Assembly (NCBI RefSeq): GCF_000467125.1
Contig: NZ_BATJ01000010.1
Span: forward strand, 62,001 to 126,000
Reading direction: 5' to 3'
Source: Vibrio proteolyticus NBRC 13287
Lineage (GTDB): Bacteria > Pseudomonadota > Gammaproteobacteria > Enterobacterales > Vibrionaceae
Length of the DNA: 64,000 nucleotides
The notes under the pieces were generated by a model. That model made no database searches and had not been told where the DNA came from. It saw only the letters and a program-made list of their open reading frames with translations. Below are positions 32,375 to 39,156 of the stretch, piece after piece. The position numbers and the translations under genes were made by a program. The stretch's first letter is position 1. Each line of letters begins with the position of its first letter.

Positions 32375-32453
32375 CGATTACCCCGTGTAATGTCGTGGAT
32401 GTCTCCATCCCGGATGATATCTGAAATTCTCTCTGACAATGATTGTTACTGCG

Positions 32454-32897
32454 ATGAAAGAAAAACTACTCGTTGGTTGGCGTGAAACGCTCAGCCTGCC
32501 GGAGCTTGGTATTAATCAAATTAACGCCAAAATTGATACTGGCGCCAGAACATCTTGCTTGCACGCATTTAAAGTCGAAAGCTTTATTCAGGACAACACC
32601 ACGTGGGTGCGCTTCTGGCTTCATCCGAAACAGCACGACGCGCACGAAGAGGTGATTTGCGAAGCCAAAGTCATCGACGAGCGCGTGGTACGCGACTCCG
32701 GCGGACATGAAGAAAAGCGCTACGTTATTCAAACCGTCATGAGCCTGGGCGGAGAAACCTGGCCAATCGAAATTACTCTGACTAACCGTGAAAACATGGC
32801 GTTTCGCATGTTGCTGGGCCGTACCGCCATGCACAATCGTATCATTGTTGATCCGGTACAATCGTTTTTAATCCCATTTGAGGAGCTACCACAATGA
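32454..32897 (+). CDS. RimB-like retropepsin-type protease (COG4067, annotated ATP-dependent zinc protease)
   Basis: Small protein of about 147 residues from ATG 32454; an ATG 15 bases upstream is also possible and neither has a good ribosome binding site. It has the aspartic-protease motif [14 protein letters not shown] with Asp28-Thr29-Gly30, and a late ILGRTAM-like segment ([11 protein letters not shown]), so despite the usual zinc-protease label it looks like a retropepsin. In Pseudomonas, RimB of this type is reported to remove glutamate tails that RimK adds to ribosomal protein S6. Here it overlaps rimK by four bases (ATGA), consistent with a writer-eraser pair; that role is inferred. 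Confidence 0.85.
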
Positions 32898-33799
32898 AAA
32901 TTGGTATTCTGTCACGTAATGCTCGCCTTTACTCAACCCGACGCCTGATCGAGGCCTGTAAAGAACGAGGGCACGAAGTTAAGGTCATCGACGCGTTGCG
33001 TTGTTACATGAATATCAATTCGGACAAACCGGAGATCCACTTTAAAGGGGAAGAGTTGTCCGGTTTCAACGCGATCATTCCTCGTATTGGTGCCTCGGTA
33101 ACCTTCTATGGCGCAGCCGTATTGCGTCAGTTTGAAATGATGGGCGTTTACCCGGTAAACGAATCGGTTGCCATCACGCGTTCCCGAGACAAACTGCGCT
33201 CAATGCAGTTGCTGTCACGCAAAGGGATTGGCATGCCAATCACTGGCTTTGCCAGTAAACCGGATGACGTTAAAGACTTGCTCGACATGGTCGGCGGTGC
33301 GCCTGTCGTGATCAAACTGCTGGAAGGTACGCAAGGCATCGGCGTGGTACTGGCGGAAACCCGTAAAGCGGCCGAGAGTGTGGTCGAAGCCTTTTTGGGC
33401 CTGAAAGCCAACATTATGGTGCAGGAATACATCAAAGAAGCGGGCGGTGCCGATATACGCTGCTTTGTGCTTGGTGATAAAGTGATTGCAGCGATGAAAC
33501 GTCAAGGCGCAGAGGGCGAGTTCCGCTCGAATCTGCACCGTGGCGGCAGCGCATCGCTGGTCAAAATTACGCCAACTGAACGACGCACTGCAGTCGAAGC
33601 TGCGAAGATCATGGGGCTGAATGTGGCTGGTGTCGATCTGCTTCGTTCTGAACGCGGGCCACTGGTCATGGAAGTGAACTCTTCACCGGGTCTCGAAGGT
33701 ATCGAAAAAGCCACCGGAAAAGACATCGCCGGTATGATTGTTGAGTTCATCGAGAAAAATGCGGCAAGCAGAAGGACAAGAACTCGTGGCAAAGGCTAA
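32894..33799 (+). CDS. rimK: RimK, S6 C-terminal glutamate ligase (ATP-grasp)
   Basis: ATP-grasp ligase that adds glutamate residues to the C terminus of ribosomal protein S6 and can make poly-glutamate. The 301 residues start [21 protein letters not shown], then show [18 protein letters not shown] (ATP-binding), [19 protein letters not shown] and [13 protein letters not shown] near residue 257 (metal-binding ENSS region). The gene is coupled at both ends: ATGA overlap with the retropepsin gene and an internal start for the deacylase gene. Confidence 0.95.
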
Positions 33800-34859
33800 G
33801 CGCAATAACGTATTTGAATTTCAAGGCGAAACCATTCTTCCGGGCGAACGCAAAGCGTTCGAACTGGAAGCGGCCAAGCTGTATACCCACTCCCCATTGT
33901 CCATACCGGTAGAAGTGATCAATGGCCGTTTTAGCGGCCCGGTCCTGATGGTCAATGCCGCCATACATGGCGACGAACTCAATGGCGTAGAAATCGTACG
34001 TCAGTTGATCAACACCATTGACGCCACCAAACTGAAAGGCACGCTCATCGCCGTGCCGATCGTGAATGTGTTTGGTTTCATCCATAAGTCACGTTATCTG
34101 CCGGACCGCCGCGATCTCAACCGCTGCTTTCCGGGCAGCAACAAAGGCTCATTGGCCTCACGTATGGCGCATACGTTTTATTCTCAGGTGGCTGAGCGCT
34201 GTGATTACATCATTGACCTGCATACCGGCGCGATCCACCGCACTAACCTGCCGCAGATCCGTGCCGACCTGAGCAACCCGGAGACCATGCGTATCGCCAA
34301 GGCGTTCGCCACACCGGTGATTGTCGATGCACCACTGCGTAACGGCTCGTTGCGTAGTGAAGCCGAACTGCAAGGCATCCCGGTGCTGACTTATGAAGCA
34401 GGCGAAGCGCTGCGTTTTGAACCGATCTGCATTAATGCCGGTTTCATTGGTATTCAGCGGGTCATGCAGACCATCGGCATGCTCAGAGCAAGCCGTAAAA
34501 AGCTGCCCACCCCGGTGATTGCTAAGTCAACCAGTTGGTTGCGGGCCGAAAGCGACGGCATTTTGCGTACACTGGTCACCTTAGGCGAACGGGTTGAACG
34601 TGGTCAGATCCTGGCTTACATCAGTGCGCCGCTGGGGCATGATGAAATCGTCCTGAAAGCCAATAAAGGCGGTGTGGTCATCGGTCAGCAAACCTTGCCT
34701 CTGGTCAATGAAGGAGACGCGATTTTCCACCTGGCGTATTTCACAGAAGACGACGAAGAAGTCGAACAAGCCGTGGGTGAGTTTATCGGTGAAGTGGTGG
34801 AGCTCGATGCTGAGCCTTTGACCACCGGTCAAATGACGCCGCCCAACTCGGCCTCTTAA
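33786..34859 (+). CDS. Succinylglutamate desuccinylase/aspartoacylase family protein (COG3608)
   Basis: Zinc-dependent deacylase of the AstE/AspA family. Taken from GTG 33786, which has GAAGGA nine bases upstream and overlaps the end of rimK, it has 357 residues; an ATG at 33759 is possible. The zinc ligands are visible as HGDE (His61, Glu64) and His146 in IIDLHTG; the C-terminal 80 residues look like a beta-rich barrel. Known relatives remove acyl groups from amino-acid side chains or N termini. Its fixed place after rimK suggests an action on a modified amino acid or peptide linked to glutamylation, but the substrate is unknown. Confidence 0.88.
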
Positions 34860-34862
34860 GCT

Positions 34863-34894
34863 AAAAAAGCCCGCAATCTCGTGCGGGCTTTTTT
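34863..34894 (+). terminator. Terminator after the rimK operon
   Basis: AAGCCCGCA and TGCGGGCTT form a 9-bp stem with a six-base loop, A-run before and T-run after, so it may serve both the rimK operon and the convergent transporter gene. Confidence 0.9.
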
Positions 34895-34912
34895 GGGGGC
34901 GTAATCGCAGTA

Positions 34913-36439: not shown

Positions 36440-36615
36440 CATCAATATGATTTCGTGAAGTGCGCCGAAGCCGCACTGCAACTTGCATATCAAACAGACA
36501 ACACTCGTGAGATCAGGCGAGAATTTATAAATTTATCATAGTATTACAATGACACGGTCGCTTTCTGACTTATTAGTTAAAGGTCTTGAACCTCGAAACA
36601 GATAAGGAGAAAATG

Positions 36616-39156
36616 ATGCGTTCACCTCTACTCAGGACGGCTATCCTGACAGCGATTGGGCTCAGCGCCCCTGCGCTGGCCTACCAGTGCGATCCGTTGG
36701 CGGAATGGGACTCACAAAGCACTTATACATCGGGCGACGAAGTACAGAGAGCCGCTCAGGCGTTTCGCGCCAACTACTGGACTGCCGGGGATGATCCGCT
36801 GGCCCACTCTGGTGACTGGCAGGAGTGGCAAGCTCTGGGGCCATGTGATCAGAGTGATAATCAGGCACCGCAAGTGTCGCTCATCTCCCCGGTCAACAAC
36901 GCGCAAATTCCACAAGGCAGTACTATCACGCTGAAAGCCAGTGCCGAAGACAGCGACGGCAGTATCAGTCATGTCGATTTTCAAATTGACGGTCAGACCG
37001 TCGCCACCGTCACTCAAGCGCCGTATCAGACGAGCTGGACAGCCACCCTGGGCGCTCAACAGGTGACAATTGTCGCTACTGACAATCAGGGTGCCACAAC
37101 GACGCAAAGCACCACCATCCAAGTGACGCCGTCTGGAGACCTGATCCCGCCGACAATCTCACTGACCAGCCCTAGCGGCAGCGAATCCGTCAACGAAGGC
37201 AGCTCACTGACTCTCAGTGCCGAGGCCAGTGACAGTGACGGCAGCATCATTGATGTCACGTTCCTGATCGATGGCGCGCCCGTTGCGACCGTGACCTCAT
37301 CACCATACCAATACCACTGGGCAGCTCAGGCGGGAGAACACACCTTCAGCGCCCGTGTGACGGACAATGATCAACAATCCACCAGCAGCAAAAGTGTCAA
37401 CCTCACCATCGCCGGTGCCGGAAACGGTGGCTGCGCCGGTCTGCCGCTATACAGCGCAGGCACCAGTTACTCTGCCGGTGAACTGGTACAGAACAGCAAT
37501 CAAAAATACCGCTGTGACATTGCTGGCTGGTGCTCATCGTCTTCTGCGTGGGCGTATGAACCGGGCAAAGGTGAATACTGGCAAGAAGCCTGGAGTGCTC
37601 AAGGCGCCTGCTCCGCGCCGCCGAGCGTGACATTAACCAGCCCGGCCCAAGGTCAGGTTTTTCTCGCCGGCAGCAACGTCACGCTCAATGCTGACGCCAG
37701 CGACAGTGACGGCAGCATTAGCAAGGTCGAGTTTTTTGCCAACAGCCAGTCATTGGGTAGTCTGGCTCAGCCGCCTTATCGTACCGGCTGGTCGGCGACA
37801 ACATTAGGCTCCAACACGCTCAAAGCAGTGGCGACCGACAATGAAGGTAACCGCGCAGAAAGCAGCGTCACAGTGACCGTCAGCGATCAGGATTTAGTGG
37901 TCGCGCTGACCTCTCCCGCTTCCGGCCAGAACCTGGCGTTAGGTAAAGCCACCACCTTAAGTGCCGATGCCACATCACTGACAGGCAGCATCCGTCAGGT
38001 GGACTTTGTCGTCAACGGCGCTGTCGTAGGCACCGACACCAGTGCGCCGTATCAGTACAGCTGGACACCGGGCGCTGTCGGCGACTACACCATTGCCGCC
38101 GAAGCGATCGACAACAGCGGGCAGCACAGTTTGTCCGACGCGGCGTCGGTCAAAGTGGTGACGCAAGTCGAGAAAAAACACAAACTGATCGGTTACTGGC
38201 ATAACTTCGTTAACGGAGCTGGCTGCCCTATGCCTTTGGCTGACATGTCGGATGCCTGGGATGTTATCGACATCGCCTTCGCCGAAAATGATCGCAACAG
38301 CACCGGCACGGTCCACTTTAACTTGTACTCAGGAGATATCCACAGCAGCTGTCCGGCGCTCAATCCTGCTCAGTTCAAGCAGCAGATGGCCGCGCTTCAG
38401 GCTAAAGGCAAAAAGTTTGTCCTGTCACTCGGGGGAGCGGAAGGTACCATTACGCTCAATACCGATGAAGATGAAGCGCATTTTGTCAGCAGCCTGACTC
38501 AGATTATTCAGGAGTGGGGGTTTGATGGTCTGGACGTGGATCTGGAAAGTGGCTCAAATCTGGTTCATGGCTCTCAGATTCAGGCCCGACTGGGTCGTGC
38601 GCTGTTGCAGATTGAGCAGAACATCGGTGGTGATATGTACCTGACGATGGCGCCAGAGCACCCATATGTTCAGGGCGGCTTTGTCGCTTACAGTGGCATC
38701 TGGGGCGCATACATTCCGGTGATCGATCAAGTTCGTGATACGCTCGATTTGCTGCATGTTCAGTTGTACAACAATGGCGGCTTGCCCAATCCGTATATGG
38801 CGGGCAGTGTGCCGGAAGGATCGGTCGATATGATGGTGGCACAATCAAAAATGCTGATCGAAGGCTTTGAGCTGGCAGACGGTAGCTTCTTTGCTCCACT
38901 GCGTGATGATCAGGTCGCCATAGGCTTACCATCCGGTCCAAGCTCTGCGAACTCGGGTCAAGCCCCGACTCAGAACATTCTGGATGCGCTCGACTGCCTG
39001 ACAAAAGGCACCCAGTGCGATACGCTCACACCGGCATTCAACTACCCGAATTACGCTGGTGTCATGACCTGGTCGATCAACTGGGATCACCATGACGGTT
39101 ACAATTTCTCCGGGCCCGTCGGAGACAAATTGACGCAGATGAATAACGCGCAGTAA
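36616..39156 (+). CDS. Secreted multidomain chitinase (GH18)
   Basis: Extracellular endochitinase, 846 residues from ATG 36616 (AAGGAG six bases upstream; a second ATG three bases earlier is closer than usual). Order: signal peptide (1-22, cut after SAPALA), chitin-binding module (about 23-85), two Ig-like domains with the repeated DSDGSI motif (about 87-270), a second chitin-binding module (about 272-333), two more Ig-like domains (about 335-515) and a GH18 barrel (about 519-846). The catalytic DGLDVDLE motif is complete, with the acid Glu644. Vibrio chitinases of this length are known; chitin is the main marine carbon source for the genus. It should be exported by type II secretion (inference). 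Confidence 0.94.
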   Translation: MRSPLLRTAILTAIGLSAPALAYQCDPLAEWDSQSTYTSGDEVQRAAQAFRANYWTAGDDPLAHSGDWQEWQALGPCDQSDNQAPQVSLISPVNNAQIPQGSTITLKASAEDSDGSISHVDFQIDGQTVATVTQAPYQTSWTATLGAQQVTIVATDNQGATTTQSTTIQVTPSGDLIPPTISLTSPSGSESVNEGSSLTLSAEASDSDGSIIDVTFLIDGAPVATVTSSPYQYHWAAQAGEHTFSARVTDNDQQSTSSKSVNLTIAGAGNGGCAGLPLYSAGTSYSAGELVQNSNQKYRCDIAGWCSSSSAWAYEPGKGEYWQEAWSAQGACSAPPSVTLTSPAQGQVFLAGSNVTLNADASDSDGSISKVEFFANSQSLGSLAQPPYRTGWSATTLGSNTLKAVATDNEGNRAESSVTVTVSDQDLVVALTSPASGQNLALGKATTLSADATSLTGSIRQVDFVVNGAVVGTDTSAPYQYSWTPGAVGDYTIAAEAIDNSGQHSLSDAASVKVVTQVEKKHKLIGYWHNFVNGAGCPMPLADMSDAWDVIDIAFAENDRNSTGTVHFNLYSGDIHSSCPALNPAQFKQQMAALQAKGKKFVLSLGGAEGTITLNTDEDEAHFVSSLTQIIQEWGFDGLDVDLESGSNLVHGSQIQARLGRALLQIEQNIGGDMYLTMAPEHPYVQGGFVAYSGIWGAYIPVIDQVRDTLDLLHVQLYNNGGLPNPYMAGSVPEGSVDMMVAQSKMLIEGFELADGSFFAPLRDDQVAIGLPSGPSSANSGQAPTQNILDALDCLTKGTQCDTLTPAFNYPNYAGVMTWSINWDHHDGYNFSGPVGDKLTQMNNAQ

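Follow-up and report, generated by a model that had tools for sequence, protein, structure and literature searches.

A zinc hydrolase of the AstE/AspA superfamily was found to accompany the glutamate ligase RimK across the Pseudomonadota, and its gene forms with rimK and a RimB-like retropepsin gene a three-gene arrangement that occurs far above chance. A functional link of some kind between the hydrolase and RimK is very probable, and hydrolysis of alpha-glutamyl chains is favored, a little above an even chance, as the activity of the third enzyme. The arrangement was followed up from a stretch of 64,000 nucleotides (the window) of the 4.75 Mb genome of Vibrio proteolyticus NBRC 13287, in which the following features were assigned:

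32454..32897, + strand: rimB-like retropepsin gene (PF05618, DTGA motif), ATG start with an alternative ATG at 32439
32894..33799, + strand: rimK, alpha-L-glutamate ligase (ATP-grasp), ATGA overlap with the retropepsin gene
33786..34859, + strand: RimK-associated zinc hydrolase of the AstE/AspA superfamily, GTG start inside rimK
34861..34896, + strand: hairpin resembling an intrinsic terminator and closing the three-gene unit (-23.9 kcal/mol; z -6.2 relative to shuffled sequence)

The first-pass annotation had described three overlapping genes, joined by an ATGA and an internal GTG and encoding a DTGA-type protease, RimK, and a zinc enzyme with HxxE and LHTG motifs, and all three were recovered at these positions with their motifs present. 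The hairpin directly follows the hydrolase gene and has 15 pairs and a U run; it was absent from the output of the consensus terminator scan, and the promoter scan gave no excess above shuffles. The hydrolase reading frame is open from 33738, and the GTG at 33786 lies 14 bases inside rimK. This GTG was taken as the start since the same codon position is occupied by ATG in 21 of 21 Vibrionaceae loci without rimK upstream and by GTG in 47 of the 57 rimK-linked loci examined. Further along the window, positions 36586-39156 encode a large protein, probably a chitinase, in which a glycosyl hydrolase family 18 domain is accompanied by four Big_7 (bacterial Ig) stretches and by a weak match to a chitin-binding domain.

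The protease identification held, with KIDTGARTS in the translation containing the catalytic D-T-G motif and a PF05618 score of 155.9 bits against a cut-off of 27, the nearest solved structure by sequence being 9g59 (E 4.5e-14). Its score for the RimB equivalog fell under the cut-off (NF052261, 124 against 200 bits), and the protein is therefore named RimB-like. RimK was likewise confirmed, scoring 483.4 bits against a cut-off of 331 for the 30S ribosomal protein S6--L-glutamate ligase equivalog (NF007764) and 522 bits against PDB 7qyr, and CphA matched it weakly in a sequence search. In the text available from the literature, RimK is described as adding alpha-linked glutamate onto S6 and as synthesizing free poly-alpha-glutamate, and RimB as an endopeptidase requiring about five or six contiguous glutamates (PMC11957791).

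Conservation of the linkage was examined in 229 gammaproteobacterial genomes, drawn evenly, in which the three families were searched and their coordinates compared. RimK was present in 94 genomes (98 rimK hits), and the hydrolase gene lay within 3 kb on the same strand at 58 of the 98 hits (58 of 94 RimK genomes), accompanied by the retropepsin gene at 53. The gene order matched the window at 47 of these linked hits, five had RimK-hydrolase-protease, five RimK-hydrolase, and one protease-hydrolase-RimK; two of the five hits with the hydrolase but without the retropepsin gene came from contigs roughly 3 and 5 kb long. The protease alone adjoined a further 26 of the 98 hits, 25 as protease-RimK (five of them a single fused frame) and one reversed, and neither partner was beside the remaining 14. 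Thus the retention of the third gene with rimK in other genomes, on which the first-pass reading depended, was observed in this class and also beyond the Gammaproteobacteria. Clustering of the neighbors of the 58 linked loci for a regular fourth gene gave a commonest cluster in only 10 loci, and several other neighbor clusters resemble antisense frames. The cluster in 10 loci is a CorA-family metal transporter by the Pfam assignment of one member (e.g., L207:2547-3524).

Co-occurrence was more extensive than adjacency. A search with the hydrolase profile and for RimK in 249 Pseudomonadota genomes identified RimK in 92, the hydrolase anywhere in the genome in 63 of those 92, and RimK in all 63 hydrolase-bearing genomes. 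The two genes were adjacent in 42 of the 63 and apart in 21, so that co-occurrence outlasts adjacency; 43 of 71 hydrolase hits adjoined rimK, as did the hydrolase at 25 of 30 loci fetched from this sample. The class sample agreed, with RimK in 63 of 64 genomes containing a rim-type hydrolase (63 of 65 counting a divergent copy in G049), and the hydrolase occurred without RimK in G216, perhaps in G049, and in the Vibrionaceae genome of locus L084. Because the samples overlap in part and kinship links their genomes, counts are used here and very small p-values are given no weight. RimK evidently works without the hydrolase, since no adjacent copy was present in 36 of the 94 class-sample genomes with RimK. 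The hydrolase was also missing from all six RimK genomes of one group in the phylum sample (f170, taken as the enterobacterial family from its size and kinship). Genomes with the fused RimB-RimK frame (G145, G031, G105, G058, and G222) had the hydrolase subfamily in none of five cases versus 63 of 89 other RimK genomes (p 0.003, with kinship ignored and only five genomes).

Among 80 Vibrionaceae loci, RimK lay beside the hydrolase in 59 and the hydrolase stood alone in 21. The linked loci were arranged as in the window in 57 cases; of the other two, one abuts a contig edge and the second has a rimK split into two pieces (L027:4110-5014), where the neighboring genes are whole and the break is either genuine or a sequencing artifact. 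A pepD-like gene upstream is common to the window and the four solo loci that were read out. RimK was encoded elsewhere in 19 of the 20 searchable solo-hydrolase genomes, in each case as a RimK-protease pair, and was absent from the genome of L084; three solo-hydrolase genomes had a second RimK, one with its own hydrolase adjoining. A quick RimK tree placed the 19 solo-genome proteins in one group (support 92) within a clade of 27 whose other members were mostly from RimK-hydrolase-protease modules (six), and the sister of the group was the RimK of such a module in G484, a genome of the window's own genus (support 99). The simplest history would be that an incoming module displaced the native protease-RimK pair and lost its own hydrolase, with the native hydrolase retained.

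The third protein matched PF24827 at 160.3 bits (cut-off 25) and contains both motifs noted at first pass, as H61-G-D-E64 and L-H146-T-G. It was below the equivalog cut-offs for AstE (TIGR03242, 26.7 against 305.65 bits), aspartoacylase (NF002601, 37.3 against 180), and DoeB (TIGR02994, 93.6 against 402.7), DoeB being the best-scoring NCBIfam family and this deacetylase the nearest characterized relative by sequence. The closest relatives in the named collection were Vibrio proteins with up to 87% identity. A tree of 87 proteins separated the subfamily (80 members) from seven paralogues by a long branch (support 98). Five of these paralogues, one from the window's own genome, passed the DoeB cut-off at 463-528 bits; one of the other two was narrowly under it, and the last, on a very long branch, is something else.

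Alignment of 70 relatives showed H61, E64, and E204 in all and H146 in 68, and these four residues together with N112 and R113 were conserved in the subfamily and in the seven outgroup paralogues. By motif, they would correspond to H21, E24, H116, E178, N70, and R71 of human aspartoacylase, listed in the order H61, E64, H146, E204, N112, and R113 (residues as given in the available text of PMC10998430). By analogy, H61, E64, and H146 are predicted zinc ligands, E204 the putative general base, and N112-R113 the likely carboxylate pair. Residues conserved specifically in the subfamily include E69, R72, R152, N154, Q157, R159, R190, E207, R210, W251, and R253, the arginines being placed from the alignment and not from distances in a model. 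Arg occupies position 190 in 69 of 70 relatives and in all ten N-extended members described below, whereas Asp is found there in six of seven outgroup proteins and in DoeB (6twl), whose substrate carries a cationic side chain.

An AlphaFold model of the hydrolase built from 44 Vibrionaceae sequences had pLDDT 80 and pTM 0.83, with values under 50 in the active-site loops 96-104 and 149-152. The best fold matches were DoeB-type structures (Z 28.7-31.2, with 3cdx at 31.2), followed by two uncharacterized Shewanella proteins (Z 26.6 and 26.1) and then by CphZ, the nearest characterized match after the DoeB type (Z 25.6, 297 residues, 15% identity; profile match E 0.099). The zinc and carboxylate residues are shared with the N-acetyl-L-2,4-diaminobutyrate deacetylase DoeB (6twl, 6twm), as is the fold over nearly the full chain (Z 30.9, 301 residues); the two differ at position 190. 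AstE, aspartoacylase, the deglutamylase CCP5 (Z 15.3), and many carboxypeptidases of other specificity gave Z 14.6-18, so the match to CCP5 is unspecific because the others are equally similar. The fold and zinc site fit plain deacylases as well. Deglutamylase activity had been suggested on structural grounds for bacterial M14 carboxypeptidases of a different clade, which then, in the published text available, had little activity on a model substrate (PMC3940198), a precedent that calls for caution in reading such activity from fold.

Ribosomal protein S6 had been assumed as the substrate of the system at first pass, and this was not supported: S6 tails do not track the trio. The tails were compared in 80 genomes chosen non-randomly from the S6 matches listed, comprising 40 of 58 with the trio, 20 of 36 with RimK but no adjacent hydrolase, and 20 of 135 without RimK. 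A C-terminal Glu was no commoner with the trio (18 of 40) than with RimK lacking the adjacent hydrolase (10 of 20) or without RimK (8 of 20), and one tail in the last group (G131) resembles a run-on. S6 as a common target is weakened by this lack of correlation; the case of S6 in the window's own genome, where the protein ends in Glu, is unaffected. S6 as the sole target is likewise not supported by these counts.

We infer a three-enzyme cycle with the following reaction, substrate, and sequence of steps. RimK would add alpha-linked glutamates to an acceptor, which may be S6 in some species and free glutamate or other C-termini in others, and the RimB-like retropepsin would cleave within the glutamate chain. 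The zinc hydrolase would then strip C-terminal glutamates or degrade the oligo-glutamates left by RimB to free glutamate. In its active site, zinc would bind the scissile carbonyl, N112-R113 would grip the free alpha-carboxylate, E204 would activate water, and extra arginines including R190 may accept the acidic side chain. The carboxylate pair and extra arginines appear suited to the chain ends that an endopeptidase such as RimB leaves. The first-pass annotation had offered two roles for the third enzyme, of which trimming of poly-glutamate fits the results better and simple release of N-acyl-glutamate fits them worse; trimming is preferred because the AstE, aspartoacylase, and DoeB cut-offs were all missed and because the hydrolase tracks RimK.

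AstE frees glutamate from N-succinylglutamate, and a DoeB- or AstE-like N-acyl-amino-acid deacylase could in the same way supply or salvage glutamate for RimK and leave the polymer untouched. That DoeB is the best NCBIfam family and that the nearest solved structures are DoeB-type speak for such an enzyme, which is nonetheless considered unlikely: every curated deacylase cut-off was missed, whereas five of seven paralogues pass that for DoeB, a long branch separates the subfamily from these paralogues, and co-occurrence with RimK in 63 of 63 genomes would not be required of a glutamate supplier.

Two other explanations set chain hydrolysis aside. The protein might serve chiefly as a RimK partner or regulator, with hydrolysis secondary, as reported or proposed for Pseudomonas RimA and RimB: in the texts available, RimB is reported to stimulate RimK (PMC11957791) and RimA is described as a proposed RimK regulator (PMC12239564), and five of 98 rimK hits have the hydrolase without an adjacent retropepsin gene. 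Against this, the catalytic residues are nearly invariant in the 70 relatives and the solo hydrolase of Vibrio was kept alongside a foreign RimK, which is less likely for a specific partner, and a mainly regulatory role is distinctly improbable. The substrate of the trio might instead be a small molecule or another protein, neither S6 nor free polyglutamate, in a pathway to which RimK contributes a ligase; the uncorrelated S6 tails would agree with this, as would the cofactor side chains built by RimK relatives in other organisms (available text of PMC11957791). Such a pathway is quite improbable given that linkage does not extend regularly to any other gene, the most frequent additional cluster reaching 10 of 58 loci, and that RimK here exceeds the cut-off for an S6 ligase.

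Hydrolysis of glutamyl chains, the preferred reading, may extend to a second setting. Ten further members of the subfamily are extended at the N-terminus by 49-271 open-frame residues that include a hydrophobic, signal-like segment, and these ten form a single clade (support 100). The segments were judged by hydrophobicity alone, and the best 12-residue means of 1.8-3.0 in these ten touch the range of the 58 linked proteins (mean 0.66, maximum 1.94). Five of the ten adjoin rloBC, encoding RloB- and RloC-like proteins, and the Rlo ligase RloC was present in all ten genomes; of two genomes without the N-extended form, the window's own has the Rlo ligase and G216 does not. The published rlo operon is described, in the text available, as encoding a secreted retropepsin, a transglutaminase-like membrane protein, and an ATP-grasp protein, and the system is associated with osmotic stress, biofilm formation, and antibiotic resistance (PMC12239564). 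The five loci beside rloBC and the trio loci taken together indicate that a single hydrolase type accompanies two different retropepsin-ligase systems. A separate Rlo-type locus with a PF05618 protease and RloC lies in the window's genome (G000:C49:357594-360496), in which no N-extended hydrolase of the subfamily was detected.

More tentatively, and with rather less confidence than in chain hydrolysis itself, it is proposed that a build-cut-finish cycle for poly-alpha-glutamate may exist twice in the Proteobacteria, once in the cytoplasm, with RimK, the RimB-like protease, and the hydrolase, and once in the periplasm, where the Rlo proteins would take part. The hydrolase would be the missing third enzyme, S6 one acceptor among others, and the whole a counterpart of cyanophycin turnover and of the tubulin glutamylation code. 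If the hydrolase finishes glutamate chains, models of reversible ribosome glutamylation and of poly-alpha-glutamate turnover miss a step in those lineages, and the Rlo system gains a new candidate member.

Among the papers listed by the literature searches, none joins RimK with this enzyme type, an earlier mention being possible, for example in the 2009 ligase-neighborhood survey of Iyer et al., which reportedly covered the gene neighborhoods of ATP-grasp ligases. The word desuccinylase is absent from the main text of the rim papers (PMC11957791, PMC10092738), as are desuccinylase, succinyl, aspartoacylase, M14, carboxypeptidase, and deacylase from the main text of the rlo paper (PMC12239564), and a study of ATP-grasp neighborhoods mentions neither desuccinylase nor aspartoacylase (PMC4431377). 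The Pseudomonas RimB-RimK and RimA-RimB-RimK operons likewise have a retropepsin adjacent to an alpha-L-glutamate ligase (available text of PMC11957791 and PMC10092738); they differ in that no zinc hydrolase is described in them and in that the window's retropepsin is below the RimB equivalog cut-off. The RloA-RloB-RloC operon also combines a retropepsin with an ATP-grasp protein and is described in the text available as three genes without such a hydrolase, whereas the subfamily hydrolase adjoins it in five genomes here; a signal peptide is reported for RloA, and the rlo-linked hydrolases have hydrophobic N-terminal segments (PMC12239564).

The cyanophycin cycle of CphA, cyanophycinase, and CphZ (8ein, 8eip) similarly employs an ATP-grasp synthase, a first polymer hydrolase, and then a member of this superfamily, cyanophycinase being described in the available text as an exopeptidase and CphZ as cleaving the dipeptide that it releases (PMC12661447). 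Cyanophycin is an Arg-Asp polymer, in contrast to the glutamate chains here, and CphZ and the hydrolase are alike in fold with only 15% identity over the aligned residues. Cyanophycinase is not known to be a retropepsin. In tubulin glutamylation, TTLL ligases are opposed by CCP deglutamylases, which are zinc carboxypeptidases. CCP5 (8v3n) has the same fold as the hydrolase but belongs to a different family, with 215 residues aligned. Two retropepsin-ligase systems, rim and rlo, were therefore already known; new here are the hydrolase as their shared partner, the putative module swap in Vibrio, and the N-extended clade.
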